Notes under the pieces: generated by a model | Database searches by the model: none | What the model saw: only the letters and a program-made list of their open reading frames with translations | Told to the model about the DNA's origin: nothing | NCBI RefSeq assembly: GCF_025938095.1 | Contig: NZ_JAPCZF010000010.1 | Coordinates: forward strand, 62,001 to 126,000 | DNA: 64,000 bases | Source of the DNA: Novosphingobium sp. JCM 18896 | GTDB taxonomy: Bacteria > Pseudomonadota > Alphaproteobacteria > Sphingomonadales > Sphingomonadaceae | Direction: 5' to 3' | Translations under genes and position numbers: made by a program | Shown here: positions 41,120 to 61,974 of the stretch, in pieces | Numbering within the stretch: position 1 is the stretch's first letter | Layout of the letters: each line of letters begins with the position of its first letter

Positions 41120-41130
41120 AGCAAAGTCTC

Positions 41131-46336: not shown

Positions 46337-46346
46337 GTCGGTGTCC

Positions 46347-47351
46347 TCACAGCACGCAGCAATTGCGCTTGCGCCAGAGCAGGAAGCCCATGTCCTCGCC
46401 CTTCACGGGATAGGTGCGCGCGGCGCGGGGAAACAGGACCGAGCCACCGATCGGCGAGCAAGCCTCGCGGCCCGACACCATTGGCGTCGGATTGACCTGC
46501 TGGAGGCGGTACTGGCTCTTCTTGAGGATCGGCATGACGTACTTGCCGCACAGGGCCTTGGAGCCCATCGTCCCCCAGCCCAGGGCTTGCCGATGCATCT
46601 TGTAGACCATGCGCTCGGCCGCCAGGCGCCCCGACTGGGTGAGGCCTACACTCGCGCCGATGTTGCCATTCAGCGGGTACATTGAGCCCTGGCAGCCCGA
46701 GCACCAGAAGAGCTCGTTCAGCGGGAGCGCCGCGGTCGAGGCAACGCAGTCGGCGGCACAGGCTGCCTGAGCCAACGGATTGGCAAAGATCAGGGCTTCG
46801 GGATTGATGAGCGTGGTAAGCGTATCGTCCTGCCAGAGCGGGTCGATCTCGGTCATATAGGCGACATCGAAGCTCGCCTGCTCAAAGCACAGGAAATCGG
46901 TGAGGATCTCCATCCAGTAAAGGAGCGGGTAGACGTAGTAGTGGACGTGATACTTGGCCGTGTCCGTACCGCCATTGGAGCCCGTATTCGCGGCATAACC
47001 GCCGCCCATCGAGAGCCCCGGGTTGAGCTTGATCCCACCAAGGTTGGGAAAGCAAAACGGCTTGGTCGTGACGTCGATCAGTCGCGCGGGCTCCCAGAAA
47101 CCCATGGCGATCCCGATCCGCGGAGGTGAACTGCAGACGCAGACCGGGGAGGCGGGATTGCTGGGGTCAGAGCGCGACGAAGGCCAGATCTTGAGCCCGC
47201 CGACCGATAGCGGGAACATGCAGCCCCAGCAGACGTCGGTGATCGGGTTTACGAACGATCCCGAGCAACTCGCGGACGGGATTTGCGCCTTCGCAGCACC
47301 CGGCAGGAAGAGAAAGAGCGCGAGGGCGAATTGCAGGAGCCACTTATTCAT
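46347..47351 (-). CDS. traU: TraU, F-type pilus assembly protein
   Basis: A 334-aa periplasmic protein with a signal peptide (ending GAAKA) and the Cys-rich TraU core (NPITDVCWGCMFPLSVGGLK, then CVCSSPPRIGIAMGFWEPAR, then TKPFCFPNLGGI). The C-terminal motif RKRNCCVL ends the protein. It overlaps the 88-aa orf by 8 bases. Confidence 0.93.
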   Translation of the reverse strand: MNKWLLQFALALFLFLPGAAKAQIPSASCSGSFVNPITDVCWGCMFPLSVGGLKIWPSSRSDPSNPASPVCVCSSPPRIGIAMGFWEPARLIDVTTKPFCFPNLGGIKLNPGLSMGGGYAANTGSNGGTDTAKYHVHYYVYPLLYWMEILTDFLCFEQASFDVAYMTEIDPLWQDDTLTTLINPEALIFANPLAQAACAADCVASTAALPLNELFWCSGCQGSMYPLNGNIGASVGLTQSGRLAAERMVYKMHRQALGWGTMGSKALCGKYVMPILKKSQYRLQQVNPTPMVSGREACSPIGGSVLFPRAARTYPVKGEDMGFLLWRKRNCCVL

Positions 47352-47610
47352 CGTCCGACCTTCCCGACATCAGGTGGTCGTCATCCGCGGCGTTCTTCGC
47401 CCGTATCCAAATGCCGCCCTGGACCACTATGAACACGGCGAGGCCCACGAGCATGCTGAGCGCGACCGGCCCAGCGATCGCGCTCCAGAACAGCGTCATG
47501 ACGCCAAGGGTGACCATCGCGGCGATCAATCGGAAGCGAGCGGTGCGCAGCGCACCTGTTTCCGGAGCGGCCATCGGCACCGGCATGTGCCTTGTCAGCC
47601 AGGCCTTCAT
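47344..47610 (-). CDS. Small membrane protein in the transfer operon
   Basis: An 88-aa protein with two TM helices (FRLIAAMVTLGVMTLFWSAI and PVALSMLVGLAVFIVVQGGI) and an acidic end. It lies between traW and traU with 4- and 8-base overlaps. No standard F-type name fits with certainty. Confidence 0.7.
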   Translation of the reverse strand: MKAWLTRHMPVPMAAPETGALRTARFRLIAAMVTLGVMTLFWSAIAGPVALSMLVGLAVFIVVQGGIWIRAKNAADDDHLMSGRSDDE

Positions 47611-48263
47611 GCGCCCTTCCCCTGGTTCAGCGCGGCTTCGCGAACGATCAGGATCTTATCCTTCTGCTCGACCGAGGCGGGGGTGTGCTCGATACCGAAC
47701 TTGGCCGTCAGCGAGCCTGCCTGGTCGAAGTAGAAGCGGCGCTGCTTCGCCTTCATGAGATCGAAGGGCGAGCCCTTCACCATGATGATCTTGGTCTTGA
47801 GATCGTCGCCCTGCCGCACGGCCCAGTTCACCTGCGCCGGATCGTCGCCGTCGATGAAGAGGAGCTTCTGCGACAGGGAGATTTTGTCGAGCGGGTTGAT
47901 CCGCTGGCCAGCAGCTGCGATCAGATTGCCCTTGTGATCGCGAATGTCGTTCTCAATCGTGATGGCCGGATCAAACTCCCAGGTCCGATCTTCAACGGCA
48001 GCGGTGATGCCGGCAACGGGCACGGGCCGCATGACATGCGCCTTCACCTTTTCCGCAAACCGGGCATTGAGCTCGTCGAGCCTGCCGTTTGCCTGGGCAC
48101 GGGCAAGCTTGGCGCGGATAACCTCGAGAAGGTCAGGCTCGGCCACCGGCCAGGCCTCCCCGATCTGCCCATGGTCGACCGCGCGCGCCGGGCTTTGCCA
48201 AGGTAGAAGTGTACCGCTGATCGCGCCAACGACACCGGCGAGGACGAATGGAAGGATCTTCAC
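47607..48263 (-). CDS. traW: TraW, F-type pilus assembly protein
   Basis: A 218-aa protein with a signal peptide (KILPFVLAGVVGAISGTLLP) and family segments YPVAEPDLLEVI-like (WPVAEPDLLEVIRAKL), RTWEFDPAITIENDIRDHKG and GQRINPLDKISLSQKLLFID. The GTG at 48263 shares GTGA with the upstream stop. TraW and TrbC act together in periplasmic pilus assembly. Confidence 0.9.
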   Translation of the reverse strand: MKILPFVLAGVVGAISGTLLPWQSPARAVDHGQIGEAWPVAEPDLLEVIRAKLARAQANGRLDELNARFAEKVKAHVMRPVPVAGITAAVEDRTWEFDPAITIENDIRDHKGNLIAAAGQRINPLDKISLSQKLLFIDGDDPAQVNWAVRQGDDLKTKIIMVKGSPFDLMKAKQRRFYFDQAGSLTAKFGIEHTPASVEQKDKILIVREAALNQGKGA

Positions 48264-48793
48264 AGGATCGGCCTCCCCACCCCCGCAATGCGGTTGCCGC
48301 AAACAAAGCTGATCGCAGCGTAGCGACTGTCGAAGCCGTCCTTGTGATCCGTGCCGGCGAAGACGCAGCCGCGGGGAATGATGCCGACTGGCCCCGGAGC
48401 GAGCGCGTCGCCGCGCCGCGTGAGAGGCTTTAGCCGCGCTACCCTCTGGCCGTTGACCAGGACGTCGTTGCCCTCGCGGCTGACGACATCGCCCGGAATC
48501 CCGTAGGCGATCTTCGCGAAGGGCGAGGGATGCTCGCCGAAGTATTTGCGCACCAGCGGATCACGGCCCGGATTGAAGATGACGTATTCCCCGCGGGAGG
48601 GAAACCGGCCCGCTTCGACGAGAAACGCCCAGTTCGGGAGAGACTCGCTCTCGTTGATCATCAGGGCGTGCGCGCTGCTCCAGCTCGACAGGCTCTGCAG
48701 AGCCAGAGCGGCCACTGCCAGTAGGCCGATAGCCGCAAGTCTTTTGCCAAAGCCGTGCCCGCCGCGCGGAAGCGCTGTCTCACTGCGGGTTGC
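48260..48793 (-). CDS. S26-family signal peptidase (TraF-type pilin maturase)
   Basis: A 177-aa inner-membrane peptidase: one TM helix (FGKRLAAIGLLAVAALALQS), the catalytic-Ser region (NESESLPNWAFLVEAG) and the general-base Lys region (FAKIAYGIPGDVV), then DGFDSRYAAIS. RP4 TraF of this family removes a C-terminal piece of pilin and cyclises it. I chose the GTG at 48793, inside trbI; an ATG at 48847 is possible. Gene name left blank to avoid confusion with F-type traF. Confidence 0.85.
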   Translation of the reverse strand, partial: ATRSETALPRGGHGFGKRLAAIGLLAVAALALQSLSSWSSAHALMINESESLPNWAFLVEAGRFPSRGEYVIFNPGRDPLVRKYFGEHPSPFAKIAYGIPGDVVSREGNDVLVNGQRVARLKPLTRRGDALAPGPVGIIPRGCVFAGTDHKDGFDSRYAAISFVCGNRIAGVGRPIL

Positions 48794-49373
48794 CACCGGC
48801 GGCTCCCATCGGGTCGAGGGACGAAATCGCAGGCGCTGCATGATCACCGTTGGCGGAGAGGTAGGCCTGCATGTCCTGCTGGACCGGCGTTGCCACCGCG
48901 ACCTTGGGCATCGGCACCTTCGCGTAGACGGCGCGCTTCACCTGCGCGGTGATGTCGGGAATGTCGCCGCCGATCACGGCTTCGTTGACCAGAATCAAGC
49001 GCCCCGACTTGCCAACGGCAGCAACGGCCTTGTCGAGTTCGGACATGAATCGCGTGGTCGCCGCAGCGGCCACCTGATCCTCATTTCCCGAGCGAGCCTG
49101 CAGCTGAAGGTACTCGGTGACGAGACCCTGCAGTTGCAGCTTCACCAGTTGGCGCTCGGGCTTCTCCGGCGTGACGATGGTCTTGGTGACCCAAGCTCCC
49201 CAGCAGACCACGCCGATCAGCGCGCCGACCGTCAGGACCTGGCGAAGGTCCACCCTGCCCTTCCCCGTCTTGCGAGTCACACCGCCGTTCGAACCCTGCC
49301 GGGGAACTTGTTTAGACCCGGAGCCTGCAATGGTGGAGCCCTGTTGGCTCGTTCCGTCAGTTGGGTCAGTCAT
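48780..49373 (-). CDS. trbI: TrbI, F-type transfer protein
   Basis: A 197-aa inner-membrane protein with one N-terminal TM (VLTVGALIGVVCWGAWVTKT) and a periplasmic region with the TrbI pattern (FMSELDKAVAAVGKSGRLIL, then NEAVIGGDIPDITAQVKRAV). It influences pilus retraction in F. It overlaps the 112-aa orf by 8 bases and the peptidase by 14. Confidence 0.85.
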   Translation of the reverse strand: MTDPTDGTSQQGSTIAGSGSKQVPRQGSNGGVTRKTGKGRVDLRQVLTVGALIGVVCWGAWVTKTIVTPEKPERQLVKLQLQGLVTEYLQLQARSGNEDQVAAAATTRFMSELDKAVAAVGKSGRLILVNEAVIGGDIPDITAQVKRAVYAKVPMPKVAVATPVQQDMQAYLSANGDHAAPAISSLDPMGAAGGNPQ

Positions 49374-49704
49374 CGGCGCTTTCCTTCAGAAGGGCCTGCA
49401 TCAGGGAGTGACAGCGAAAGAAGCCGGTCCCGCAGAAGGCCAAGGAGACCGTCCACAGCAGGATCAGGTCGAACTGGTGCTGGCGCTCGGGGCCGGCAGC
49501 GAGATAGCGGGGTGCGAGATTGGCGAGTTGATGCATCGCGCCCTCGATCGACAGGCCGCCGATGAAGAGCGTGGCAAGGGTGAGGACGCCCAGCGCGACC
49601 ATCGCGTTGACGAGAACCCACCCTGAGACACGCAGTCCCGTTGCCAGGACGCCCTGCCAGATCAGCCGGGGCGGCGCGGATCGCTGAAGCGGCACGGTAA
49701 TCAT
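49366..49704 (-). CDS. Small membrane protein downstream of traC
   Basis: A 112-aa protein with two or three hydrophobic segments (VLVNAMVALGVLTLATLFIG, FDLILLWTVSLAFCGTGFF). Overlaps traC by 4 bases and trbI by 8. Not assigned to a standard F-type name. Confidence 0.7.
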   Translation of the reverse strand: MITVPLQRSAPPRLIWQGVLATGLRVSGWVLVNAMVALGVLTLATLFIGGLSIEGAMHQLANLAPRYLAAGPERQHQFDLILLWTVSLAFCGTGFFRCHSLMQALLKESADD

Positions 49705-52265
49705 TCCGCCGCCTCCAGCATCTCCTCAGAGGGCCGAATGCGATCGGGGAATGCCACGATCTCTATCGCTTCGGCGACCGACAGGCCCTGGTGAACCAGC
49801 GCCTCGATCCGCGCGAACACGTCGGGGCTCGAGGAGTAGAGTGTGCCCGAATAGGCATCGAGTACGAGACGGCACACCGTCTCGGTCTCCGGTCCGCGGA
49901 TCAAGAGATCGGAATACTCGATACCGTTGCGCTTGAGCGACCGCAGCAGCGTCTCGGTGTAGGAGGTCATGTCGAAGCGGTCGGACTTGCGAAAGTCCGA
50001 GATCGTCTCCGCCTTCTGCTGGAGGATCACGAACCAGTCGGAATTCTCCAATGCCGCGCGGCTGCCATCGGACTTGTAATAGTCGTTGATCGACTGCGTC
50101 GCGGTGATGAGCGAAGCTCCGTATTTGCGGCAGGTGCGCGAGTAGGTCTCGACGAAGTCGGCCATCGCGCCGCCCTTGAGCATCTGCCAGGCCTCATCGA
50201 TCAGCAGCGCCTTGGGTATCGAGCGGCTCATGCGCCGCATCGTCTGCGAGGCGACGAACATAATTGAGGTCAGGACGACGCTGCGCAGTTCCTCGCGCGA
50301 CGAAAGGTCCGAAAGCTCGAAGACCGTCAGATCGGCCGAGAGGTCGAGATTGCTCTCACCGAGGAAAAAGCGGCCGTAGGTGCCCTCGCTCGAGAAAGGC
50401 AGCAGCGACATGGCAAGATCGACCGCGGCGACATGCTCGTTGGTCCGCAGCGAGGCGATGACGTGGTCGACGGTACCGTCGCGCTGGTGCTCGTTCCAAA
50501 CGGCGTTGACCGCCTGGTCGATCAGGCCGCGCTCAGTATCGTTGAGCCGGTTTTCATAGCGCGCCATCTGCGACACGATTGCTTTCAGCATTGCGAGGCA
50601 GTCGACGAGGTAATCCTCATCCTCTTCGGCTAGATCGATGTCGATCATACGGAAGGGGTTGATCGAAATGCCCGAGGACAGCTTGAACTCGGTGAACGTG
50701 CCGCCCAGCGCTTTGGCCATGTGCTCGAACGAGCGGCCATCATCGATGACGATCGTCTTGGCCCGCACGCCGGCAAGGCTCGCGGTGAGGTCCTGCAGGA
50801 AGACCGACTTACCCGAGCCCGACTTGCCCGCGATCGCGACGTTGTGGTTGCCCGCCTTGTTCTGGAAGGGCGACCAGAACTGCGGCTGACCGCGCCGGCC
50901 GATGAACATCACGTGCGGGATGTGCCCGCCGACGTACTCGCCCTGCAGCGGCGCGATCGCCGCCACATTCGTCGACAGCATCGTGCGGAACCGCTTCATG
51001 CGCTCGAGGTCCGCCTGCAGGCCGTCCGCGATCATCAGCGGGAAGTGAGACATGAAGGCAGGAAGCTGGATGTGGGTCTCGTCGATGAGATCCCAACCCG
51101 CCGCCTTGTAGAGGCCCTTGATCGAACGTTCGGCCGTTTCCGCCGTGCCGCGCGGAGCGATGATCGAAACCGAATAGTAGCAGCGGATCAGCTTCTCGCC
51201 GCTTTTCACCCGCTCCTGCACCGCGCGCCATTCGGCCGCCTGGTCGCGCAGCTTGGGGACGAGCTTCACCCCCTGCCCTTCGGACAGCGACTGCGTACGC
51301 ACGAACTTGCGACCGGCTTTCGATTCCGAGCTCTCGACACCGGGCGTCACGCCGCAGACCGACTGCAGGGTCGGGCACGGCAAGCAGAGCTTGGGATTGA
51401 AGATATCGCCAATCGTCTTCTGGGTATCCCAGGGTGCCCAGCGATCCGGAAAGTTGCGGATCGACATCGTGCGCACGTCGAAGCGCTCGGGGACATAGTC
51501 CTCGAACTCAGGTACGCCATCGACGTCTGAGCCCGTCGGCCGCAGCGACTGCGAGTGCAGCAGCAGGCGATCCTTCTCGACGTGCGTCACGAGATCGCGG
51601 CGCACGCATTGTTCATTGATGGGATCGAAGCGGTTGTACCCGGGTGCGTCATCACCCGCGCCTGTCGACGGCGACAGGATCTCGTCGAAGAAACGGATCA
51701 GGTGAACCGGCTCGAGGATCCGCACGGGAACGTTGATGGAATCGAGCGCCGAGATGAGCGCATCGCGCATGGTGACGAGATCATCGAGCCTGATGCCCGA
51801 GCCGTCAGGCGCGCCGACCGAAAACAGCACGCGGAAGTTGCGCAGATAGAACGGCCCATCGCTCGCCAGCGACTTCCAGGCGCCGCCGCGCAGCTTGTCC
51901 GCCCGGTGGCGCGCCAGGGTCGAAAACACTCCGCCCGCCTCAAGGCGTGGTAGCACCCACTCGGTGAGCTTCTCGGCAATGCGCGGGCTCGAGTAGTTGA
52001 CGATGCTAAACGCCGTGCCGGGCAGCAGTATGTCCGAGAAGATGGTGCCGATGATGTCTGCCGTTCGCTCGTCGCCGCCGAGCATCGGCGCCAGCTCGAG
52101 CACGAAGCCCTTCGAGCGGACCTGGTAGAAGATCTTCCGGTCCTCATCGAAGGACCGGTAGCCGAGGTAATGCGAGAGCATTGGCACGGCTGCGGGGCGC
52201 GCGCGCACCTCGGGCTTACGCGCATCGCCCAGAACCATCTCGCGAAGATTGTCTAGCAAGCCCAT
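49701..52265 (-). CDS. traC: TraC, F-type T4SS ATPase (VirB4-like)
   Basis: An 854-aa VirB4-class ATPase: TraC N-terminal domain (residues about 20-260), Walker A GKSGSGKSVFLQDL, Walker B KALLIDEAWQML, and later motif ITATQSINDYYKSD. It powers pilus assembly from the inner membrane. A Cys cluster (CLPCPTLQSVCG) is seen near residue 290-300. The C-terminus is acidic. Confidence 0.94.
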   Translation of the reverse strand: MGLLDNLREMVLGDARKPEVRARPAAVPMLSHYLGYRSFDEDRKIFYQVRSKGFVLELAPMLGGDERTADIIGTIFSDILLPGTAFSIVNYSSPRIAEKLTEWVLPRLEAGGVFSTLARHRADKLRGGAWKSLASDGPFYLRNFRVLFSVGAPDGSGIRLDDLVTMRDALISALDSINVPVRILEPVHLIRFFDEILSPSTGAGDDAPGYNRFDPINEQCVRRDLVTHVEKDRLLLHSQSLRPTGSDVDGVPEFEDYVPERFDVRTMSIRNFPDRWAPWDTQKTIGDIFNPKLCLPCPTLQSVCGVTPGVESSESKAGRKFVRTQSLSEGQGVKLVPKLRDQAAEWRAVQERVKSGEKLIRCYYSVSIIAPRGTAETAERSIKGLYKAAGWDLIDETHIQLPAFMSHFPLMIADGLQADLERMKRFRTMLSTNVAAIAPLQGEYVGGHIPHVMFIGRRGQPQFWSPFQNKAGNHNVAIAGKSGSGKSVFLQDLTASLAGVRAKTIVIDDGRSFEHMAKALGGTFTEFKLSSGISINPFRMIDIDLAEEDEDYLVDCLAMLKAIVSQMARYENRLNDTERGLIDQAVNAVWNEHQRDGTVDHVIASLRTNEHVAAVDLAMSLLPFSSEGTYGRFFLGESNLDLSADLTVFELSDLSSREELRSVVLTSIMFVASQTMRRMSRSIPKALLIDEAWQMLKGGAMADFVETYSRTCRKYGASLITATQSINDYYKSDGSRAALENSDWFVILQQKAETISDFRKSDRFDMTSYTETLLRSLKRNGIEYSDLLIRGPETETVCRLVLDAYSGTLYSSSPDVFARIEALVHQGLSVAEAIEIVAFPDRIRPSEEMLEAAE

Positions 52266-52272
52266 CTTCGTT

Positions 52273-52905
52273 TCACTCCGGCGAGGGGAAAGAGGCAGCC
52301 TGTCGGCGCGCGCGTGTCGTCAGCTTGGCATCGACGTCTGCCTTGATGCGATCGACGGCGGTTTCGGCCGGCTGAGGGCCGCCCTGCGCGTTTGCGGCAA
52401 GGGCCGGCGCGGCGGGGGGAGGCGCGTTCTCGGAGACCAATACCGGCGCGCTCTGTGCTGCCGAGAGCAGGCCCTTTGCCTCCTGGCGGCCGCGCGATCG
52501 GCTTGCGAGCTCGACGCTGCTCGCCGTCCGGCCCGGCAGGCCGACATCGGTCGTTACCGATCGGCGCTGGTGCGTGACCCCGGCCACGTCCGTGTAGCCC
52601 GGGAAAATGACGCTGAGCTTGTACGCCTGGTTCTGCGCCGCAAGCACGCCCTCGGCATTGGCCATCCGGCCGCGGCCTCCATCACCATCATCGACCTTGT
52701 ACGGGCCAGTTGGCGTCATCAGTTCCTGGGCATCAGCCCGGGTGATCTCGGACAAGGCCGTATCGTCGATCGCAGTCGAGGGCGCGCAGATCCCGTCAGG
52801 CGCTTCGCACCGGAACGAGCCGTTGATGTTGGTGCCGAACGAGGCACAGCCCGAGGTTGCTGCGAGCATGCCGACGAGGAGCGCGGGAAAAAGGGCGCGG
52901 CGCAT
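52273..52905 (-). CDS. traV: TraV, outer-membrane lipoprotein of the T4SS core
   Basis: A 210-aa lipoprotein: signal and lipobox MLAATSGCASF, then the TraV Cys motif (FRCEAPDGICAPS). The C-terminal region is Ala/Pro rich. TraV anchors the TraB/TraK core complex in the outer membrane. ATG overlaps the dsbC-like stop by one base. Confidence 0.9.
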   Translation of the reverse strand: MRRALFPALLVGMLAATSGCASFGTNINGSFRCEAPDGICAPSTAIDDTALSEITRADAQELMTPTGPYKVDDGDGGRGRMANAEGVLAAQNQAYKLSVIFPGYTDVAGVTHQRRSVTTDVGLPGRTASSVELASRSRGRQEAKGLLSAAQSAPVLVSENAPPPAAPALAANAQGGPQPAETAVDRIKADVDAKLTTRARRQAASFPSPE

Positions 52906-53717
52906 CAGTTCGCCCCCTTCAGCCAGGACTCCAGGAACTCGCGCGGCCGGTAGCCTTGGACAACCGCACCATCGCTGCGCACGATCACCGGCGTTCCAGT
53001 GAAGCCGTTCTTGCGCGCGAACTCCTCGTTGGCATCGAGGCCGCTCGTGTCGCACTTGCCCGCCGGCGGCAGGGCCGCGCCGCCATAGGCCTGCGCAAGG
53101 GCGCGGGGCTTATCGGCGGAGCAGATCACCGCGTCTGAGATCGAACGCGTACCAAGGACCGAAATCGGGCGCTCGATCACTCGCACGTTCATGCCGGCCA
53201 GGGTTTCGTGGAGGCGGTTGCAGTAGCCGCAGCGGAAGTCGCTGAAGACGGTGACCGTTTGGGTGCCCGATCCGTAGCTGACAGCCCCCGAGGCCGGCAG
53301 TCCCGCAAGCGAGACCTTCTGCGCAACGCCGCCACCCACTTGCGCAGGCCGCGCCGGCGATGGCGCGGCCTGCGCCCCGCCCTGAGGCTGAGGGCTGGCA
53401 GCTCCGCCGACGAGTGTTTCAGGGCTGATCTCGAGAAGCCGGGCGGCCGTGAGGTCCTGCCGCGTCTCCATATCGTAGACCCGCCCGATCACGAGATACC
53501 GGCCCGAGGGATCGGTGTAGAAGAGGTTGTTGCCGGCCTGGACTTCGCACAGACCCGAGATCTTCCCGCATTTGACTGCCGTCAGCGGCGTCTTGGGCAA
53601 GCGAGTGGCAAGTGCCTTGGTCAGCGACGCATCGGCGTCGACGGTTGCGGCATAGAGAGCGCCGCCGCCGGCCACGATGGCGAGCGCAGCTGCGCCCGCA
53701 AGAATTACCTCACGCAT
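52905..53717 (-). CDS. DsbC/TrbB-type thiol-disulfide isomerase
   Basis: A 270-aa periplasmic protein: signal or anchor (ILAGAAALAIVAGGGALYAA), N-terminal dimerisation part (about 25-95), Pro/Gln-rich linker, and a thioredoxin fold with FSDFRCGYCNRLHETL (CGYC) and cis-Pro GTPVIV. It probably folds the Cys-rich TraN, TraU and TraH. It has a second Cys pair in the N-terminal part (KCGKISGLCE). Confidence 0.9.
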   Translation of the reverse strand: MREVILAGAAALAIVAGGGALYAATVDADASLTKALATRLPKTPLTAVKCGKISGLCEVQAGNNLFYTDPSGRYLVIGRVYDMETRQDLTAARLLEISPETLVGGAASPQPQGGAQAAPSPARPAQVGGGVAQKVSLAGLPASGAVSYGSGTQTVTVFSDFRCGYCNRLHETLAGMNVRVIERPISVLGTRSISDAVICSADKPRALAQAYGGAALPPAGKCDTSGLDANEEFARKNGFTGTPVIVRSDGAVVQGYRPREFLESWLKGAN

Positions 53718-53725
53718 GGATCACC

Positions 53726-55048
53726 TCAGTTTCGAATGAAGGTTCCGTCGAGGAAAACGACCTCGACGTTGGCGCCGGTCGGCATTTCGATGACCGGCTG
53801 ATATTGCTCGGCACGCTCGATCAGATAGTTCGAGACGGTGTCGCCCGCGGTCGATACGCCCTCGCCTAACCCGCCCTTGAGGATGTCACCGGTGCTGAGT
53901 TGGTCGCGCTTCCCATCGACGCTGACGTTGGCGCCCTGGAAGATCGAGTTGGTGTTCGCCGTGAAACCGCGCCCGAAACCACCGGCAAGTCCGGCGAGGA
54001 ACGCCTGGCCGATGAGACCGCCTTCGCGGCTGACCACCCTGCCCCTCAGACCCACTTTACCGCCAAACGAGATGAAGCCCTTCACCTCGGAGACCGCATA
54101 TCGGCCCCCCGGCTGCGGGCAGGTCATCCGCTGCAGCTTCACGTAGACTTTCTCGGAAGAAAGATCGCCGTAGGCAGCGCCATTCACCATGCAGCCCTGC
54201 ACGCGCGTCCGCAGCAGCTTGCCGTCCGAAAAGACCGATCGCGCAGGGCCGGTGATACGCAGCAGCACCGGCAGCGGATCGCCCTGACTGCGGACGTTGG
54301 TCGCCGCGTCCACGCCGACTACGACCTTGGCCTGCGCCATCGAATTGGGCGGAAGGTAATTCGGGCTGTCGGTGAACACGGCCGCCTGCTTGCCGCCTGC
54401 TTCGATCCGCCTGGCGTCGCCCGTGGGGGCCGCAGCCCCGGCAGGTCCTGCACCGAACGACACGAGCTTGACCTCGTTCGCCCTCGACATCGGGCCTGCG
54501 CCCGGCACGCCCATAGCTCGGGCAGCCGCGGCGGCACCGGGTGCAGAAGCCTCGGTTCGGGGCCCGGGTCCCCTGGCTATCTGCTGTTTGAGCTGCTGGT
54601 TCTCGCGTTCGTAGGCGTCGAGCACGCGGGTCGCGTCCGCCTTCATCTGCTCGTTTTCCTGGCGAAGCGCCTGTACTTCGCTCTGAACCTGATCGACCTT
54701 GCCTACCGCGGTCTGGACGCCCTTGAGCTGATTGGTCTGCGCGATCTGCTGGTGGTCGTACATCGTCATCCAATCACGATCGGCGATCTGCCGGTTCATG
54801 ATGGCGTCGGTCGAGACCTCGACCTTGTCGTCGCCTTCCTTGGTGGCGAGTTCCTGCTCCTTGCCGTCGCTACCCAGCACGTACCACATGGCTGCGATGC
54901 CGATGAGGCCGCCACCACCGTAGAGGATGAGCCTCTGCCGCTTCTCGGTCGCCGAATTCTCGGCGATCATGCCGGCATCGTCGAGACTGTCGTGAGCCTC
55001 GCCCAGCTGCTCGTCGACGTTCTTATGTTTGCGCTTGAAGATATCCAT
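53726..55048 (-). CDS. traB: TraB, T4SS core scaffold (VirB10-like)
   Basis: A 440-aa protein: one TM (LILYGGGGLIGIAAMWYVLG), a coiled coil at about 100-160 (QTAVGKVDQVQSEVQALRQE), a Pro/Ala linker and a C-terminal beta-barrel-type region (VLLRITGPARSVFSDGKLLR, then AVSEVKGFISFGGKVGLRGR). It spans the periplasm to TraK/TraV. The ATG at 55048 overlaps the traK stop. Confidence 0.93.
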   Translation of the reverse strand: MDIFKRKHKNVDEQLGEAHDSLDDAGMIAENSATEKRQRLILYGGGGLIGIAAMWYVLGSDGKEQELATKEGDDKVEVSTDAIMNRQIADRDWMTMYDHQQIAQTNQLKGVQTAVGKVDQVQSEVQALRQENEQMKADATRVLDAYERENQQLKQQIARGPGPRTEASAPGAAAAARAMGVPGAGPMSRANEVKLVSFGAGPAGAAAPTGDARRIEAGGKQAAVFTDSPNYLPPNSMAQAKVVVGVDAATNVRSQGDPLPVLLRITGPARSVFSDGKLLRTRVQGCMVNGAAYGDLSSEKVYVKLQRMTCPQPGGRYAVSEVKGFISFGGKVGLRGRVVSREGGLIGQAFLAGLAGGFGRGFTANTNSIFQGANVSVDGKRDQLSTGDILKGGLGEGVSTAGDTVSNYLIERAEQYQPVIEMPTGANVEVVFLDGTFIRN

Positions 55049-55857
55049 TACAGGTCTCCCGCAGGCACGACGACATAGGCGCCGGTGGCTTGGCCGGGTT
55101 GAAGTGAGGCGTTGGAAATGCTGACCGCGATGGCGCCCTGCGAGGCGATCAGCTCATCGGTCACGACCATCGGCTCTTTGCCGGTGTTCTCGATCCGCAG
55201 GACCTTTCCGGCCATCGACAGCCCGTCGTATTCGCTGATGAGCTGGACTTTGAGATTGCCGACATTGACCGGAGTGCGGGGCTCGTCGCGGATTTCGAAT
55301 CCGTCGAGCGGCTTCTGCTCAAACATCGCGCGGACCAGACTGACCGCTTGCTGGTCGAGAGGCACGTTCGGCCTTATCGCAGCACTCCCCGCCTGGGGTT
55401 TCGCAGGCCTCGCCATATCGGCGTTCGTGACGAAGACCTGCTTGGCCTCGCTGCCGCTGACCTTGCAGACGAACTTGTAGACGAACCCCTTCTGCGTCGT
55501 GCCGAAGAACGAGATTGTCGGGCGCGTGTAGCCCTCGGGAACAGAGATATAGATGTCGCCGCGGGTGGGCTCGTTGACGATGCCGAAATCCTCAGTTGCA
55601 ACACCGGTCGTCACCTTGGACACCGACGCGAACTGGTCGTCCTTGAGCGAGATCCGCGTGAGATCCTGCTTGGAGGCATCGCAGTCGACGGCGCCGTTGT
55701 CCGTGGCCGTGACACTCTGGTCGGCATAGGCTGGTGCGGCTGTCATCAGCCCGGCGCCGAGCAGAAGCGCGCCCAGGCACCGTTTGGTGAAACAATCGAT
55801 CGTCGAGAGGAGCGTGACGCCCGAGGCGATCTCGCAGGCTGCTGCCATATCAGTCAT
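55048..55857 (-). CDS. traK: TraK, T4SS outer-core secretin-like protein (VirB9-like)
   Basis: A 269-aa periplasmic protein with a signal peptide ending in PAYA. The body follows the TraK pattern (DLTRISLKDDQFASVSKVTT, then GDIYISVPEGYTRPTISFFG, then LRIENTGKEPMVVTDELIAS). The ATG at 55857 overlaps the traE stop by 8 bases; an earlier ATG at 55890 is possible. Confidence 0.88.
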   Translation of the reverse strand: MTDMAAACEIASGVTLLSTIDCFTKRCLGALLLGAGLMTAAPAYADQSVTATDNGAVDCDASKQDLTRISLKDDQFASVSKVTTGVATEDFGIVNEPTRGDIYISVPEGYTRPTISFFGTTQKGFVYKFVCKVSGSEAKQVFVTNADMARPAKPQAGSAAIRPNVPLDQQAVSLVRAMFEQKPLDGFEIRDEPRTPVNVGNLKVQLISEYDGLSMAGKVLRIENTGKEPMVVTDELIASQGAIAVSISNASLQPGQATGAYVVVPAGDL

Positions 55858-56422
55858 AGGGGGTGTCCTTGTCGTTCTTGACCACGACACCGAAGCCGCG
55901 AAGTTTGAGGCTCAAGCCCTCGTACTTCCACGCGAACTTGAAGACGCGGTTCTCTCGGCGCACGTCGCGCGAGGCGACCACGGTGTGGAGCACACCGCCG
56001 ACTTCACTGGTCAGGGCCTCAGTATCGACGCGGATCCAGTCGATGGTCACGAATTGGGTGACCTGGGATCCCTCCTGATCTTTCAGGATGCCCATGAGCT
56101 TCGATTTGAGCGGCCCCCGCGCTTCGGGCGCGGTGATTTCGAGGATGGAATCCATCCAGTACTGGAGGGTCTCAGGCGAACGGTTGAGAGCGAGCTGCGC
56201 GGCATCGCGCGTCACGGCCTCCAAGTAGTCCTTCGAGACCCCGGACGATGAGATCGCCATCTTGAAAGGCACGACCGGCTGCAAGATGACTTCGCGGTCG
56301 CGGCTCGATGCCATCGTCACCAGGGCGAAGCACAAAATCGCAAGCACCAGGCAGGCGATCGCGAGAAGGTTACGTTGCTTGAGCGCGCGCTGCGACTGCT
56401 CGTGTGCGAAGGAAAGATCCAT
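55850..56422 (-). CDS. traE: TraE, T4SS inner-membrane protein (VirB8-like)
   Basis: A 190-aa protein: N-terminal TM (LLAIACLVLAILCFALVTMA) and periplasmic domain (SKDYLEAVTRDAAQLALNRS, then SQVTQFVTIDWIRVDTEALT). One base separates it from the end of traL. Confidence 0.92.
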   Translation of the reverse strand: MDLSFAHEQSQRALKQRNLLAIACLVLAILCFALVTMASSRDREVILQPVVPFKMAISSSGVSKDYLEAVTRDAAQLALNRSPETLQYWMDSILEITAPEARGPLKSKLMGILKDQEGSQVTQFVTIDWIRVDTEALTSEVGGVLHTVVASRDVRRENRVFKFAWKYEGLSLKLRGFGVVVKNDKDTPYD

Positions 56423-56423
56423 A

Positions 56424-56708
56424 TCAGCCCGCCATGACCCGAAGGTGAGAAGGCGGAGCGACCTTTAGACCGAAGAACCCACCGGGCAGATGCCAGTAGG
56501 CGTAGTGCAATACCCAATACATTGATCGCCCGGCACGGAGTTTGCGATAACCGAACCAAGAGCCAATTGAGATGACGAGCCCGATCACGACGTGTTGAGC
56601 CAGGATGCCCCACGCGAATGGGATGACCATCACGAGGAACTCGTCCAGGGTCCAGAAACCGATGAGTTCGGGATCGTCGAGGTGCTTGGGAATACTGTAC
56701 TGGTCCAT
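56424..56708 (-). CDS. traL: TraL, pilus assembly membrane protein
   Basis: A 94-aa protein, MDQYSIPKHLDDPELIGFWT, with two TM segments (LVMVIPFAWGILAQHVVIGL and a second helix to FGYRK). Matches the usual TraL size and order between the pilin gene and traE. Confidence 0.9.
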   Translation of the reverse strand: MDQYSIPKHLDDPELIGFWTLDEFLVMVIPFAWGILAQHVVIGLVISIGSWFGYRKLRAGRSMYWVLHYAYWHLPGGFFGLKVAPPSHLRVMAG

Positions 56709-56766
56709 AGGTCGCCCCAACCTGTGTGGGGAGCCGCCGGACGTCCGGCGGCTCATTCTCGTGGAC

Positions 56767-57093
56767 TCAGATCGTCGCGGTGACGGTCGAGGTGACGATC
56801 GGGATACCCGTGCCCGCGCCAACACCGACGCCGACGGGGATCGCGACCTGGCCGAGCGAGAAGCGGCCCGAGGCGAGGCCCACGATACCGCCGGCGAGCG
56901 ACAGCACGGTGATGATCTTGCCACCCGAACCCTCGAGGAAGCCGGTGAACTGCGTCAGCGCCGTGTCGAACGTAGCGTCCGTGCCTGCGAGAGCGGCCTC
57001 GGCGCCCAGAACGCTGGCGGCAGCAACCGCTGCGGCCGCGAGCGCAACTTTGCTGGCGACATTGCCCGCAAGACTCGTCTTGAGAGACTTCAT
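56767..57093 (-). CDS. traA: F-type pilin precursor (TraA-like)
   Basis: A 108-aa prepilin: a long leader (MKSLKTSLAGNVASKVALAA to AEAALA), then a short mature pilin with two hydrophobic stretches (GGKIITVLSLAGGIVGLASG and QVAIPVGVGVGAGTGIPIVT). Size and position, first in the operon, fit TraA. An RP4-type S26 peptidase in the same operon may process it. GGAA precedes the ATG at 57093. Gene name by role and position, not strong sequence identity. Confidence 0.8.
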   Translation of the reverse strand: MKSLKTSLAGNVASKVALAAAAVAAASVLGAEAALAGTDATFDTALTQFTGFLEGSGGKIITVLSLAGGIVGLASGRFSLGQVAIPVGVGVGAGTGIPIVTSTVTATI

Positions 57094-57526
57094 TGCTATT
57101 CCCTTCCATGGTGATGTGCGCACAGGCGCCATACGAGGAAGGCAAATCGCGAATGCGGCAGCAACGCCTATTCAATTATTCTCGGAACATTTTGGTGCAT
57201 CGATGCTCTTAACTTGCAACGATTTGCATTTAACTGGTCGACCGGTGTCGATTCGTACACCAGGCAATGTACGAAACGACACCAACTGGTGACAAAACGA
57301 CATCAGCGGATGGACAAATCGACACCGCCCGGTGCCAATTCGACACCAGGCGGGGATCAAAACGACACCACCCGGTGGCAAATCGACACCAGCGATTTTG
57401 CCTTTGACGCCGACGGCTGACGGGACTCGGCACGCCTCGCCTATCATCGCATTTAACGGATCAGGCGGTTCACCGCGGGCGCCGGCGCTGATAGGCCGAC
57501 ACATCGTCAATTTAGAAAGATTCGAT
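57094..57526. other. Pilin-operon upstream region with repeat array
   Basis: No protein gene supported; frames crossing the repeats on both strands are artefacts of periodicity. The pilin operon promoter must lie between 57094 and the array. Confidence 0.6.
57254..57404. repeat. Iteron-like array of seven 21-23-bp repeats
   Basis: Units beginning CG(A/T)ACACC or CGACATC start at 57254, 57277, 57298, 57320, 57341, 57363 and 57384, so the spacing is 23, 21, 22, 21, 22, 21. Four contain a CACC-N4-GGTG or CATC-N4-GATG dyad; the CATC/GATG unit changes both half-sites together, so the symmetry is conserved. Spacing of two helical turns puts all sites on one face of the DNA. It could be a replication iteron set, a transfer operator array or part of an oriT. 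No Rep gene is in view. Confidence 0.8.
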
Positions 57527-57898
57527 GTGAGCGGCCCAGAGGCAGCCAAGATCGTCTATCACCGGCTGAGGCTCAACGATGAGGCATTCGCCATCACCGT
57601 GCGGGCTATTGGTACCCTGAGCCTGGCCAGCCGGAAGTATGAAACGCTGGCGTCGCTCGTGACCCACGTTTGCGAAACTTACGAGATAATTCCCCAATCC
57701 GCGCTCAAGGATCTGCTCTCGCTGGGCAAAACTGGCGGCGACGTGAAGGCGTTTCTGAGGGTTCCGAATGCGACGCAGGCGGCATTTGAACGGTTTCGAG
57801 CACTTGGCGCGGAAGCCGTGGGTCCCTCCTTCCGCGTGCCCGAGGCTATTCTTCTTTGTTGCCTGATCGTGGCCCCTCTCAATCAAAGGTTGCCGTAG
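57527..57898 (+). CDS. Hypothetical 123-aa protein beside the repeat array
   Basis: A helical protein (SGPEAAKIVYHRLRLNDEAF, then YETLASLVTHVCETYEIIPQ, then LKDLLSLGKTGGDVKAFLRV). I chose GTG at 57527 behind AGAAAGA; the open frame extends upstream into the repeats, where it is not protein-like. It is divergent from the pilin operon and could bind the array, but no DNA-binding motif is certain. Confidence 0.5.
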   Translation: MSGPEAAKIVYHRLRLNDEAFAITVRAIGTLSLASRKYETLASLVTHVCETYEIIPQSALKDLLSLGKTGGDVKAFLRVPNATQAAFERFRALGAEAVGPSFRVPEAILLCCLIVAPLNQRLP

Positions 57899-57959
57899 CG
57901 CTTCCATTCACTCATAGAATGTGCCCACATGCTGAAAGTGACGACTGAGGCGGGTGGCT

Positions 57960-58514
57960 ATGGGCGAAATTTCGGCTTTTCGATTTGACGATGGATGCCC
58001 GGGAGATCGGCGAGATCACCCTCTTGCAGGCACGGCCGAGATCATACGGCGCGTGATCATCGACAAAGCCATCCCGCTTCGGGAGCTTCAGCGCCTTGGC
58101 GTAATCTCCGAGCGAACGCGCCGAAGCTTTGATGAGAAACTCCTGAGCGGCCGGATCAGCATCGTCGAGCTGAATCGTCTGTGCGATCACCTGGAGATCG
58201 ACATGGTGCGCGCGATGGTCGCCGTCCTGCTCTTGCGCAATCCCATGGCCTACTTCGAAACCGTCTGCGAAGTCGTCGCCGCCTACGCGGAAGAATCCTC
58301 CATCGCGATGCACGAGCAAATTTCAGCGGTGAGCGGCGACTTTGGCCCAATCCGTCGGAACCTCGTCCAAGCGCACGCCACGAAACTTACCCGCGACATC
58401 CTCGACCATCAGGAGCGCGCGATGAAGGCCGGCGAAGAGGCGTTCCTCGACGCCATGGTACGAGGCGAGAAAGCACTGAAACAGCAGGGAACCACGGAGT
58501 ATCGACGCAGCTAA
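57960..58514 (+). CDS. Hypothetical 184-aa protein
   Basis: No family recognised. Residues about 35-75 (DKAIPLRELQRLGVISERTR, then SFDEKLLSGRISIVELNRLC) could be a helix-turn-helix. The C-terminal half is helical and charged (TKLTRDILDHQERAMKAGEE). GAGG precedes the ATG at 57960 by 9 bases. It lies between the transfer genes and the defence island. Confidence 0.55.
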   Translation: MGEISAFRFDDGCPGDRRDHPLAGTAEIIRRVIIDKAIPLRELQRLGVISERTRRSFDEKLLSGRISIVELNRLCDHLEIDMVRAMVAVLLLRNPMAYFETVCEVVAAYAEESSIAMHEQISAVSGDFGPIRRNLVQAHATKLTRDILDHQERAMKAGEEAFLDAMVRGEKALKQQGTTEYRRS

Positions 58515-58644: not shown

Positions 58645-59556
58645 TCAGCGTTCCCAGGGCCCGCCGGGACCCCAGCGCGCAGTGAAAGTCGTGCTTCGAA
58701 CGATGGCCGTCACCGGCGCCATAACCAAGTGTTCGATTTGGGCTTGCACGTCCGGAAACGGCTCCGGGGCGAGCGCGATCTCCGTTCGCTTCAGGAATGC
58801 TGCCCATTGGCCCTGCTTCTCTGCAGCATAGGCCGTCGTGAGCGCGGCGGGCGTCTCTCGTGGCAGAACGGTCTGCCGACGCTCGAAAGTCGCGGCGATG
58901 GCGCGCGCCAACGTCGGCCCGTCAAACGCGAAGGTGTTGGCGATGGCCCACAGGTCGTAAAAGTCCTTGAGGCGCGTGTTGATCATATCAAGCGCTACCA
59001 TCGCCTGGAATTTCTCGGCGACCACGGTCTCGGGCGGGTAAGCGCGCAACTGCGCCCTCGGCTGATCGAGCAGCGAAGGATACTCGATCTCGACCGGCGC
59101 CGGCGTCACCGCATCGCCGTACCCTATGTCAACATGCATTGGCAGGCGTGCGCCGGCGAGCTCGGCGAGAAAATCGATGCGCACCCCTGCATATTCGTCC
59201 TCAGCTCGCGCGCTCTCGGCTTTCAAGGTCTCGGGCCGAAACACTATGCCGTCGTCCTCGACATCCACGGTGAGGATATCCTGAAATACGGAAATCAGCT
59301 TTTCAGGCGCGTTCTCGCCGGCGCCGAGGAGGTCGAGGTCGCCGGTCGCCCGGTAGGGCGCATCCGCCCACAGGCTGAACAACATCGCGCCCTTGAGGAT
59401 GAAGCGATCGCGATGCGGCGAACGGCCAAGCCGGTACAGGAGCCGCTCGATCACATAGCGTGTCATTAGGAGCTGCGCGTTCTCACGCCGTTCGCGCGCG
59501 CGGGACACCAGGCGGTCGCGCACCGAAACCGCAATGTTCTTCAGCGCACGGCTCAC
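58645..59556 (-). CDS. AbiEii/AbiGii-family nucleotidyltransferase toxin
   Basis: A 303-aa toxin of the type IV AbiE system. The nucleotidyltransferase core shows FILKGAMLFSLWADAPYRAT and GDLDLLGAG (the GS/D-x-D-like motif in its AbiEii form), then HVDIGYGDAV and VAEKFQAMVALDMINTRLKD (Lys/Asp motif). The family nucleotidylates tRNA or other targets and causes abortive infection. GTG start at 59556 shares GTGA with the antitoxin stop. Gene ends in basic, low-complexity residues. Confidence 0.9.
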   Translation of the reverse strand: MSRALKNIAVSVRDRLVSRARERRENAQLLMTRYVIERLLYRLGRSPHRDRFILKGAMLFSLWADAPYRATGDLDLLGAGENAPEKLISVFQDILTVDVEDDGIVFRPETLKAESARAEDEYAGVRIDFLAELAGARLPMHVDIGYGDAVTPAPVEIEYPSLLDQPRAQLRAYPPETVVAEKFQAMVALDMINTRLKDFYDLWAIANTFAFDGPTLARAIAATFERRQTVLPRETPAALTTAYAAEKQGQWAAFLKRTEIALAPEPFPDVQAQIEHLVMAPVTAIVRSTTFTARWGPGGPWER

Positions 59557-60161
59557 GCCATTGCTTCCAGATAGGGACGTATCACCGACTGCACCCGATC
59601 GATCTCGGCATAGCGATATATCCGGGCGAGGTCTGGCCGCGGGCGCGTTTTCACGAAGTCGCGCAGCGCCTCGATCGCAACATCGATCCCGATCTTGTTG
59701 CGATGCTTGAAGCAGTCGGCGACCGTCTTTGCCGGATCGGTAATACGCACCGACACACCGTCGATGCTGTGTGCTTCGATGCCGGCTGTGAGCGCTTCGC
59801 CGCTCGCGCGCACGATCTTGAGCGCGATCGAGGGATTGACCGGCGCCCAATCCTTCTGTCCCAGCAGTATCCAAACCGCGTGAGGCGTCTGCGTGGTCAG
59901 CTCATGGAATTGCAGTGCCGAGAGTAGGCAGATGACGCCGCGCGGCTGAATGCGGACAGCTTCCGCGAGGCTCGTGCCGGCATCGGTGGGCGCGTCCGCG
60001 AGCTTGTAGAGCCCGCGCCCTACCTGCTGCAGGATGCCTTCATCGCGTAGGCGCTGGATCGTCGCGCGCGTGACCCCGACCGCATCGAAATCGCGGCCGC
60101 GTGCGATGCCAAACTGGCGGGCGACTTCGAGCGCTCGTTCCTTGTGACTCGCCGTTTCCAT
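59553..60161 (-). CDS. AbiEi-family antitoxin/transcriptional repressor
   Basis: A 202-aa antitoxin: N-terminal winged helix (ARGRDFDAVGVTRATIQRLR, then DEGILQQVGRGLYKLA) and the AbiEi C-terminal region (ICLLSALQFHELTTQTPHAV, then ITDPAKTVADCFKHRNKIG). It neutralises AbiEii without direct binding and represses the operon through inverted repeats. ATG at 60161. The operator IR lies just upstream. Confidence 0.92.
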   Translation of the reverse strand: METASHKERALEVARQFGIARGRDFDAVGVTRATIQRLRDEGILQQVGRGLYKLADAPTDAGTSLAEAVRIQPRGVICLLSALQFHELTTQTPHAVWILLGQKDWAPVNPSIALKIVRASGEALTAGIEAHSIDGVSVRITDPAKTVADCFKHRNKIGIDVAIEALRDFVKTRPRPDLARIYRYAEIDRVQSVIRPYLEAMA

Positions 60162-60244: not shown

Positions 60245-61054
60245 ATGACGGGATCAGGTTCCTTTTCCGAACGCCACGGCTTTCAAGGGGGCGACGCCGC
60301 GATCACGATTCGTGAGGACGCTCCCGAGGAAGTCCGTGCCGCCGTATTGATGCTAGGATATGCCGCTGGCCTCGGCCCAAGCGCAATGCGTGACCTTGTT
60401 TGCGAAGTCCTGTTGAAGCGGCCGGATCAGAACAATTGGTCACCAAGCAATATCGAACGCGAAGTCCATGGACTCATCGACGATGCGCCTTGGTACAAGA
60501 TCTACGACATCGCCGAGCGCGTTTACGCTGCTATCGGGCGGGACGACTACACCGGCACGCGGCAGGGGGACTATGCTCGGCGCCTGACCCAGCTTTTCCG
60601 CGAACTGGGCGTCGGTTGGCAGATGGACGATGGCCGCATTGTCGTTCGCGGGTCAGAAGCCTTTACCCTGGCGACCCGTGATGCGGTCTCGATCATGCAG
60701 CAAGCAGGCAAGCCGACGGCGGCAAACGAGGTCCATGAAGCCCTGAAGGACATTTCCCGCCGACCCGCCGCGGATGTCACCGGCGCGATCCAACACGCCA
60801 TGGCCGCGCTTGAATGCGTCGCGCGGGAAATCGACAATAGCTCGGACACGCTTGGAAAGATCATCGGGCGGTTAGGCGTTCCCGCGCCACTGGACGGCGC
60901 GCTGCACCAGCTTTGGGGCTTCGCCTCGCAACAGGGCCGCCATATCCAGGAAGGACGTGACCCCACTTTCGAGGAAGCCGAGCTGGTGGTGACGGTCGCA
61001 TCGGCTGTCAGCGTCTATCTTCTACGCCGTCATGCGCGCGGTGTAGCAACGTGA
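60245..61054 (+). CDS. AbiJ N-terminal-domain-type protein, candidate defence sensor/effector
   Basis: A 269-aa protein starting FSERHGF (AbiJ_NTD4-like), with downstream family features (WSPSNIEREVHGLIDDAPWY, then KIYDIAERVYAAIG). The C-terminal half (from about 160) is helical: RPAADVTGAIQHAMAALECV, then AREIDNSSDTLGKIIGRLGV, recalling Abi-associated helical (HEPN-like) domains. AbiJ-type proteins take part in abortive infection. Its stop overlaps the next start (GTGA), and the divergent AbiE operon lies beyond the shared operator. The exact domain name is from memory. Confidence 0.7.
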   Translation: MTGSGSFSERHGFQGGDAAITIREDAPEEVRAAVLMLGYAAGLGPSAMRDLVCEVLLKRPDQNNWSPSNIEREVHGLIDDAPWYKIYDIAERVYAAIGRDDYTGTRQGDYARRLTQLFRELGVGWQMDDGRIVVRGSEAFTLATRDAVSIMQQAGKPTAANEVHEALKDISRRPAADVTGAIQHAMAALECVAREIDNSSDTLGKIIGRLGVPAPLDGALHQLWGFASQQGRHIQEGRDPTFEEAELVVTVASAVSVYLLRRHARGVAT

Positions 61055-61974
61055 CATCTTCCAATCCTCCCGCGAAACACCATTACATCCCGGAGTTCTT
61101 GCTCGCGCAGTGGGCGGTGAATGAGGGCAAACTCTGGCGTTTCCTCAGCTCAATCCCCGGCAAGATCGTCGAAAAGGCCGTGGCTCCGGCTGAGATCGGA
61201 TATGAGAAATACCTCTACGAGACGCCGGGTCTACCTCCGGAGCAAGCCCAGCAGATCGAGCAATATTTCATGTCCCCGCTCGATTCCATGGCGGCCGACG
61301 CCCACAAGCTCTTGCTTGCGGGCAAGGCCCACAAAATGCCGCAGAAGGAGCGAAGCGCATGGAGTCGCTTCGTTATGTCACTGTGGTTCCGCACGCCGGC
61401 AGGGTTGGCCTATTTCAAGGAAGCCATGGGCTTGATCCTCAAAGCCCGCGATGAGCCGCTGAACGCACGATACGACGAGGTAAAGCAGGACGGCTATCCC
61501 GATACCTTGGAAGACGTCATTGCCATGCTCGGGCCGGAGTTTTCTGAGCAAATTGCAATGCGGCTGTTCCGCAAGATGAGCGACGACCCGAAGAACGGGC
61601 TGCGGCTCAACAACATGCAGTGGTTCGTTCTCGAAGCGGCCGGCCGACCGTTGCTGATCTCCGACGCCGCCCTTCAGCACTCGCAGGCACCGATCTTCTC
61701 GCACAATGGCTACATCACGCTTCCGATCGCGCCCGAAAAGCTGTTCGTCGCGGTCAATCAGATCGCTGTAGCCCAGGCGATCGACGCAATTCCGCGTCGC
61801 GACCTCGTCGGGCAAGTCAACCGTGCCGTCGTTCGGCGCGCCGCCATTTTCGTCGGCGCGCCCGATCGGTCGCAAGACACCTTCATCCGCGACAATTTCG
61901 GAAAGGATGAAAATCACACGCTGATACGCGGCCTGGCCGAGAAGTATCGCATCGATGCGGGCGCGTCCGCATGA
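61051..61974 (+). CDS. DUF4238 domain protein
   Basis: A 307-aa protein with the DUF4238 start (KHHYIPEFLLAQWAVNEGKL) and the later signature QWFVLEAAGRPLLISDAALQ. The family is found in defence neighbourhoods; a nuclease role has been suggested but not settled. GTG start at 61051 inside the AbiJ-like stop; its own stop overlaps the ATG of the third gene. Confidence 0.85.
   Translation: MTSSNPPAKHHYIPEFLLAQWAVNEGKLWRFLSSIPGKIVEKAVAPAEIGYEKYLYETPGLPPEQAQQIEQYFMSPLDSMAADAHKLLLAGKAHKMPQKERSAWSRFVMSLWFRTPAGLAYFKEAMGLILKARDEPLNARYDEVKQDGYPDTLEDVIAMLGPEFSEQIAMRLFRKMSDDPKNGLRLNNMQWFVLEAAGRPLLISDAALQHSQAPIFSHNGYITLPIAPEKLFVAVNQIAVAQAIDAIPRRDLVGQVNRAVVRRAAIFVGAPDRSQDTFIRDNFGKDENHTLIRGLAEKYRIDAGASA

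Follow-up and report, generated by a model that had tools for sequence, protein, structure and literature searches.

The pilin locus and its repeat array

The window analysed here is a stretch of 64,000 nucleotides from Novosphingobium sp. JCM 18896 and forms part of a 138,592-base contig in a genome of 5.3 Mb. Its minus strand carries an F-type transfer operon (38306-57132) with Pfam matches for TraC, TraU, TrbC, TraN, TraF, TraH and TraG. The pilin gene of this operon (56767-57132, minus strand), whose match to the TrbC/VirB2 family falls slightly under the Pfam cut-off, is followed in the annotated relatives by traL, traE, traK and traB. The repeat array occupies the space between the leftward pilin operon and two rightward genes, p1 (57527-57898, plus strand) and p2 (57954-58514, plus strand). 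Of the 20 plasmid relatives with annotation, 11 have a gene for a lytic or SLT-type transglycosylase behind the p1/p2 region. In the window, a type IV toxin-antitoxin pair, made of an AbiEii nucleotidyltransferase toxin and an AbiEi-type antitoxin, lies directly behind p2 on the minus strand (58645-60161). It is adjoined by genes for a protein with an AbiJ N-terminal domain and then a DUF4238 protein (60245-61974, plus strand), and it is possible that these genes and the Abi pair make up a small defence cluster. A UvrA-like paralogue of 990 amino acids with ABC and UvrA DNA-binding domains is also encoded near the transfer region (29080-32052, minus strand). The only Rep_3 match and the only TrwC relaxase match of the genome lie on another contig, C26, near positions 90784 and 147400.

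The array (57244-57398, no strand assigned) was recognized by its sequence, by repeat finding and by comparison with shuffles, and it comprises seven units on the plus strand and one inverted unit on the pilin side. Counted from the pilin, the units read CACC-AGGC-AATG (57258-57269), CACC-AACT-GGTG (57280-57291), CATC-AGCG-GATG (57301-57312), CACC-GCCC-GGTG (57323-57334), CACC-AGGC-GGGG (57344-57355), CACC-ACCC-GGTG (57366-57377) and CACC-AGCG-ATTT (57387-57398). Each CACC or CATC core starts at the first of these coordinates, and the steps from core to core are 22, 21, 22, 21, 22 and 21 bp, with a mean of 21.5 bp, or two helical turns. CGA directly precedes six of the seven cores (CGACACC or CGACATC). 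The initial annotation had seen CACC-N4-GGTG in most units, which was overstated: the pattern is exact in three of seven (57280, 57323 and 57366), and the units at 57258, 57344 and 57387, with degenerate right halves, have a single good half each. The joint change of both half-sites to CATC and GATG in one unit, also pointed out there, is real, and the unit at 57301 is the sole CATC-N4-GATG match in the window.

Chance is a poor explanation for this row. The array scored 99.4, whereas none of 2000 shuffles exceeded 66.4 with any period of 12-33 bp allowed, and Tandem Repeats Finder also detected it, with periods of 21 and 43. CGACAYC occurs seven times on the two strands of the 560 nt upstream of the pilin gene, while 5000 dinucleotide shuffles gave a mean of 0.27 and a maximum of 5. 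The seven-unit array with two-turn spacing that had been annotated at 57254-57404 is thus confirmed far above the shuffles, and the inverted half-unit GGTGTCG (57244-57250, CGACACC on the minus strand) falls outside that interval. Our array finder centred the units on the other dyad of the row, with GGTG and CACC around an AT-rich centre, and either dyad is compatible with the sequence as the true centre. Elsewhere in the genome, matches to the window motif with one mismatch are mainly due to chance (59 forward and 43 reverse, compared to 50 and 51 for the reversed control). Flanking the array, GCATTTAAC stands at 57226-57246 and again at 57449-57469, with 76% identity over 21 nt; these copies could be sites for p1 or could have arisen by chance.

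Arrays at related pilin loci

Relatives of the pilin come from the sphingomonads and their order. Of 197 pilin records, two were discarded for insufficient length and the rest were collapsed wherever their upstream regions were identical, which left 141 distinct loci. A finder for symmetric motifs placed a palindrome array with a period of 20-23 bp in 85 of them above all 60 dinucleotide shuffles of the same locus, and detected none in the other 56. Control periods of 15-18, 25-28 and 30-33 bp passed in 9, 9 and 22 of the 141 loci, judged against shuffle maxima computed for 20-23 bp. A simpler self-alignment test put 67 of the 141 above 20 shuffles, and 65 still passed 20 shuffles when steps of 12-33 bp were left free. 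With this freedom, 266 of 431 steps in the passing loci measured 20-23 bp, compared to 3249 of 17793 in the shuffles. Given this excess of steps and the results of the finder over the 141 loci, spacing by two turns, or about 21 bp, characterizes the family as a whole. The median array has five units. Palindromic units in many of these loci also fit the selection for symmetry proposed in the initial annotation, to the extent allowed by a finder that itself favours symmetric units. Four sub-significant loci (L100, L101, L104 and L110) contain a pair of GGTAATTTTTTTACC-like copies at a distance of about 20 bp, so that 85 of 141 may be an undercount.

The layout is shared and the motif is not. The 85 arrays fall into about 36 motif classes at a similarity of 0.6, and into 31 to 47 at other thresholds. 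Their motifs include GACACC, GGGAC..GTCCC, GGGGCA..TGCCCC, TTTCCC..GGGAAA, GTGTAA..TTACAC, ACCACGTGGT, TGCGCA and CGCGAC..GTCGCG, among others, and those of L046 and L048 come closest to that of the window. By blastn, the DNA of the window array had no match in the plasmid collection, and a search of 118 genomes returned its own locus only, as would be expected if the motif changes fast.

The occurrence of arrays across replicons bears on two of the possible functions. In one of them, which had been raised in the initial annotation, the repeats are plasmid iterons bound by a replication initiator. Consecutive repeats of 21-22 bp are typical of iterons, the array at L013 has a gene for a replication initiator at a distance of about 1.5 kb, and repC is near at L216, though no array was detected at that locus. 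However, significant arrays also stand on contigs of 1.16-3.2 Mb (L077, L114, L155 and, at 3.2 Mb, L080), and the motif follows the helix-turn-helix (HTH) domain of p2, as described below. With the four initiator families tried, no initiator gene was found beside the repeats: PF10134, PF03428 and PF07042 had no match in the genome, although the control of one of these searches matched nowhere, and PF01051 matched only on C26. We consider an iteron function highly improbable.

In the other, the array is a centromere-like site for segregation or positioning, a tethering element that would tune transfer. The model for this is plasmid R388, in which StbA binds the stbDRs, 9-bp repeats arranged in two groups of five around the promoter of the stb operon next to oriT, and in which stbA is described as affecting both stability and transfer (PMC3098194). 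An array upstream of the gene for its binding protein, in a transfer region, is a layout shared with our locus, where p2 is the proposed binder. In contrast, the stbDRs are described as direct repeats spaced by 2 bp (PMC3098194), whereas the repeats here are two-turn palindromes beside a pilin gene. A plasmid centromere would also be unneeded on the contigs of 1.16-3.2 Mb, and this function appears improbable to us, if less so than that of iterons.

Which protein the motif follows

Two candidates for reading the array are encoded next to it. By the criterion of its domain, p2 is a regulator with an HTH of the Cro/C1 (XRE) type. This assignment draws on family models and on a structure model, in which p2 is predicted to consist of helices only and to combine a Cro/C1 HTH with a long helix at its C-terminus. 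Taken alone, the p2 of the window stays under the Pfam cut-off (HTH_26, E 0.06), but HTH_31, HTH_3 and HTH_26 each match 13 of 53 p2 members at E of at most 0.1, with a best value of 4.1e-06, and a p2 profile finds the restriction-modification controller C.BclI at 2.2e-04. Nothing useful apart from these HTH models was found in the family libraries. The structure matches are weak (VIA Z at most 7.7; all Foldseek E values above 0.5, with no match at 0.001 or better), and the closest proteins are XRE proteins such as ClgR, HipB and restriction-modification controllers; the XRE protein 5woq_C, for example, aligned with Z 7.4 and an rmsd of 2.3 over 73 residues. p2 is present in 135 of the 141 loci. 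By tblastn it was found in 11 plasmid records, compared to 86 for the pilin. Its profile matched 72 of 196 genomes of the order, but many of these matches were weak and covered the HTH only, and they were not used further.

p1 is predicted to be a tandem ribbon-helix-helix protein, similar to TraY of plasmid F in position and perhaps in fold. Its AlphaFold2 model (mean pLDDT 90.8) has strands at residues 9-16 and 73-80 and helices at 18-35, 41-51, 57-66, 81-98 and 104-115, so that the chain would contain the strand-helix-helix element twice, as in F TraY, with an extra helix between the halves. In VIA, the six top matches fell on chains from the F relaxosome entries 9f10, 9f0x, 9f0y, 9f0z, 9f12 and 9f11 (Z 6.0-6.9), and the sequence of F TraY matches 18 chains named TraY across these entries, for example 9f0x_E. 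The best of them reached Z 6.9 with an rmsd of 3.6-3.7 over 93-95 residues, where a Z below 8 may mean a common arrangement only, and the best Foldseek E value was 0.13. No sequence homology of p1 to TraY was detected (hhalign probability 0.4%), nor any meaningful match of p1 in the family-model libraries. p1 is present in 87 of the 141 loci, and it is probably a transfer accessory that travels with the switch in most of them. In L079 and L146 there is room for a gene of its size, and no p1 match was found in it.

The possible resemblance to TraY makes p1 a rival reader, in which case the array would be a TraY-type operator or an element of the relaxosome or oriT. p1 stands where traY stands in F, its best structural matches are chains identified as TraY by sequence, and F TraY is described as binding in a train of two direct molecules and one inverted molecule (PMC12117103). 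The loci without p1 argue against such a role. Significant arrays occur in 67 of the 87 loci with p1, and also in 16 of the 48 loci that have p2 and lack p1; two further p1-less arrays counted at first were dropped, L091 because the sequence ends before p1 would be visible and L095 because p2 had no match. Eight of the 11 relatives that carry such p1-less loci have no p1 match anywhere. In L049, L155 and L089, all without p1, p2 directly adjoins the array, and at L049 the array has six units with the consensus TGAGC..GCTCA exactly 21 bp apart.

Covariation between motif and protein gave a second line of evidence. The tests used the 83 significant arrays with p2, thinned to 57, 42 or 15 loci, and omitted the 20 of 87 p1-bearing loci with non-significant arrays; the HTH of p2 was taken as residues 38-80. 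Whole proteins were indecisive, because motif similarity correlated equally with the identity of p1 (0.62) and of p2 (0.61) over 45 loci and the two identities correlated with each other at 0.87. Within p2, the parts differed. The HTH identity correlated with the motif at 0.55 over 57 loci, and its partial correlation was 0.41 when the C-terminus was controlled for (0 of 1000 permutations), compared to 0.06 for the C-terminus given the HTH. In the 42 p1-bearing loci, the HTH kept 0.36 given both the C-terminus and p1, while p1 fell from 0.57 to 0.24 given both parts of p2, so that p1 may contribute to some extent. In 15 loci without p1, the values were 0.33 for the HTH (1 of 1000 permutations) and 0.05 for the C-terminus.

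These figures also speak to a further possibility, in which the covariation reflects shared descent of the whole module and a host protein or another plasmid protein reads the array. The high correlation between p1 and p2 indicates that parts of the module travel together. However, shared descent should favour the C-terminus of p2 as much as the HTH, both overall and in the p1-less loci, and it did not. We regard this explanation as very unlikely.

At the level of single residues, the HTH columns covaried with the motif more than the rest of p2 (Mann-Whitney p between 1.1e-4 and 4.2e-4, a test that treats columns as independent). On average, the HTH columns also have the higher conservation, and in the p1-less subset of 16 loci the excess was not significant (p 0.14). 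The top columns were E72, R43, S65, E61 and E53. Since neither columns nor locus pairs are independent, all these p-values are rough. For p1, the predicted DNA contact columns showed no covariation: sets of six random columns did equally well in 1552 of 2000 draws and, after correction, in 1985 of 2000. This comparison was made without the half-period shift of the motif; the wider shift was used for the whole-protein comparisons and the column rankings. The six columns were chosen by alignment to Arc. Reading of the array through these columns was rejected as a candidate after this comparison, and none of the six was among the 16 p1 columns listed as best with the wider motif shift.

Particular HTH sequences recur with particular motifs. 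ERTRR pairs with GACACC or GACGCC (the window, L046 and L048), K(S/T)RLG with GGGGC or GGGAC, RRQLG with GCCC..GGGC, and HRxx(F/L)(F/Y)ERI with CCA-N2-TGG. RxxLHK pairs with TTTCCC, including the p1-less locus L155 (TTCCC..GGGAA) and, more weakly, L182. As a held-out check we used 14 further plasmid loci, 11 of them significant, from which two copies of training loci were dropped. For the remaining nine, the training locus closest in HTH took ranks 15, 19, 2, 2, 1, 3, 1, 10 and 3 of 83 by motif similarity. The mean rank of 6.2 was not reached in 20000 random rank sets, a null that ignores relatedness among the training loci. In one of the nine, L215, the HTH is identical to that of its training neighbour, and at two held-out loci with arrays, L208 and L218, no p1 is annotated. 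The outcome was mixed when p1-less loci were matched to the p1-bearing locus with the nearest HTH, which was seldom close (ranks 33, 36, 15, 13, 10, 4, 5, 31, 7, 17, 17, 9, 14, 32 and 5 of 42).

Because the motif tracks the HTH of the adjacent p2 and the array stands upstream of an F-type transfer operon, a transfer operator is the best supported of the three functions in the initial annotation, and this inference is drawn from sequence comparison. Reading by p1 seems unlikely to us, as the p2 HTH predicts the motif better, although p1 identity does correlate with it. The array could also be an oriT element: p1 has the position of TraY and perhaps its fold. However, p1 is not the protein that the array follows best, and the sole genome match of PF08751, the TrwC-type relaxase, is on C26 and not on the contig of the transfer operon.

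A proposed switch for transfer and its changing code

We suggest that the array is the operator of the divergent regulator p2, which would fill it cooperatively and thereby switch both the pilin/transfer operon and the genes of p2 itself. We give this reading a probability of about 0.7, on the strength of sequence patterns and their covariation. Dimers of p2 would sit on neighbouring palindromes along the same helical face and stabilize each other's binding, and the array might therefore fill or empty over a narrow range of p2. Its occupancy would then control the pilin/transfer operon together with p2's own genes. The cooperative filling is suggested by the same-face spacing and by analogy with Rco of plasmid pLS20.

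RcoLS20 of this Bacillus plasmid is an Xre regulator described as binding cooperatively to several motif copies at divergent conjugation promoters, with seven copies in operator OII and four in OI (PMC4207663). The likeness to our locus lies in the regulator family, the divergent promoters for regulator and conjugation genes, the multi-copy operators and the cooperative binding that we propose. The pLS20 operators differ in that they are described as looped, with 8 bp motifs in two clusters separated by 75 bp (PMC4207663), whereas the window has a single, evenly phased two-turn palindrome array before an F-type operon, with a motif that varies among lineages. Plasmid F, with the order transglycosylase, traM, traJ, traY, traA, traL, traE, traK and traB, resembles the locus in the transglycosylase gene at the edge and in the tandem ribbon-helix-helix gene beside the pilin gene, followed by traL, traE, traK and traB. 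However, traJ and traM occupy the place of p2, traY is co-directional with traA whereas p1 is divergent, and no match between the sequences of p1 and TraY was detected. The restriction-modification controllers C.BclI, C.AhdI and C.Esp1396I are among the top Foldseek matches of the p2 HTH (E above 0.5), and the titles of such entries speak of a tetramer on its operator and of OL and OR operator complexes. Points of difference are the long helical C-terminus of p2 and the arrays here, with their median of five units.

In the proposed p2 operator, repression that can be lifted, an ON/OFF switch of conjugation, seems more likely than activation. XRE regulators are mostly repressors. The best sigma70-like promoter match towards the pilin in the window, a consensus match alone (9 of 12), lies inside the array (57266-57295, minus strand), which favours repression. 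Over the 85 arrays, the best match was below the array in 43, inside it in 25 and at its edge in 17, and no conserved promoter position was found among them (5 of 85 at p of at most 0.1, with 30 shuffles each), so that the relatives allow no inference on repression or activation.

Each part of this system is of a known kind; what is unusual is that the architecture of the array stays fixed while the recognition code changes rapidly. Regulator and operator would shift their specificity jointly, which would give different switches in different lineages. Tentatively, we propose a hypervariable regulator-operator pair: in the conjugation systems of one order, the array architecture would have stayed fixed while the HTH and the operator code changed repeatedly, perhaps insulating transfer systems in the same cell, so that a newcomer would be silenced or not by the resident. 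Among genomes with at least two loci, some pairs have clearly different significant arrays (G050, G152, G067 and the JRVC and VNIM assemblies), the pair in G033 shares a motif class and that in G005 has similar motifs; such co-resident pairs are too few to test insulation. In the titles and abstract beginnings of the open-licence literature, including that on regulator-operator coevolution in conjugation, we found no description of the array and no account of how such transfer operons are regulated in sphingomonads. With the paired arrays and HTH sequences, it can be tested how a Cro/C1 HTH comes to recognize a different motif and whether switches private to each transfer system keep those in the same cell apart. 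If the proposal is true, these loci would form a natural library from which to read the code by which HTH domains recognize DNA.
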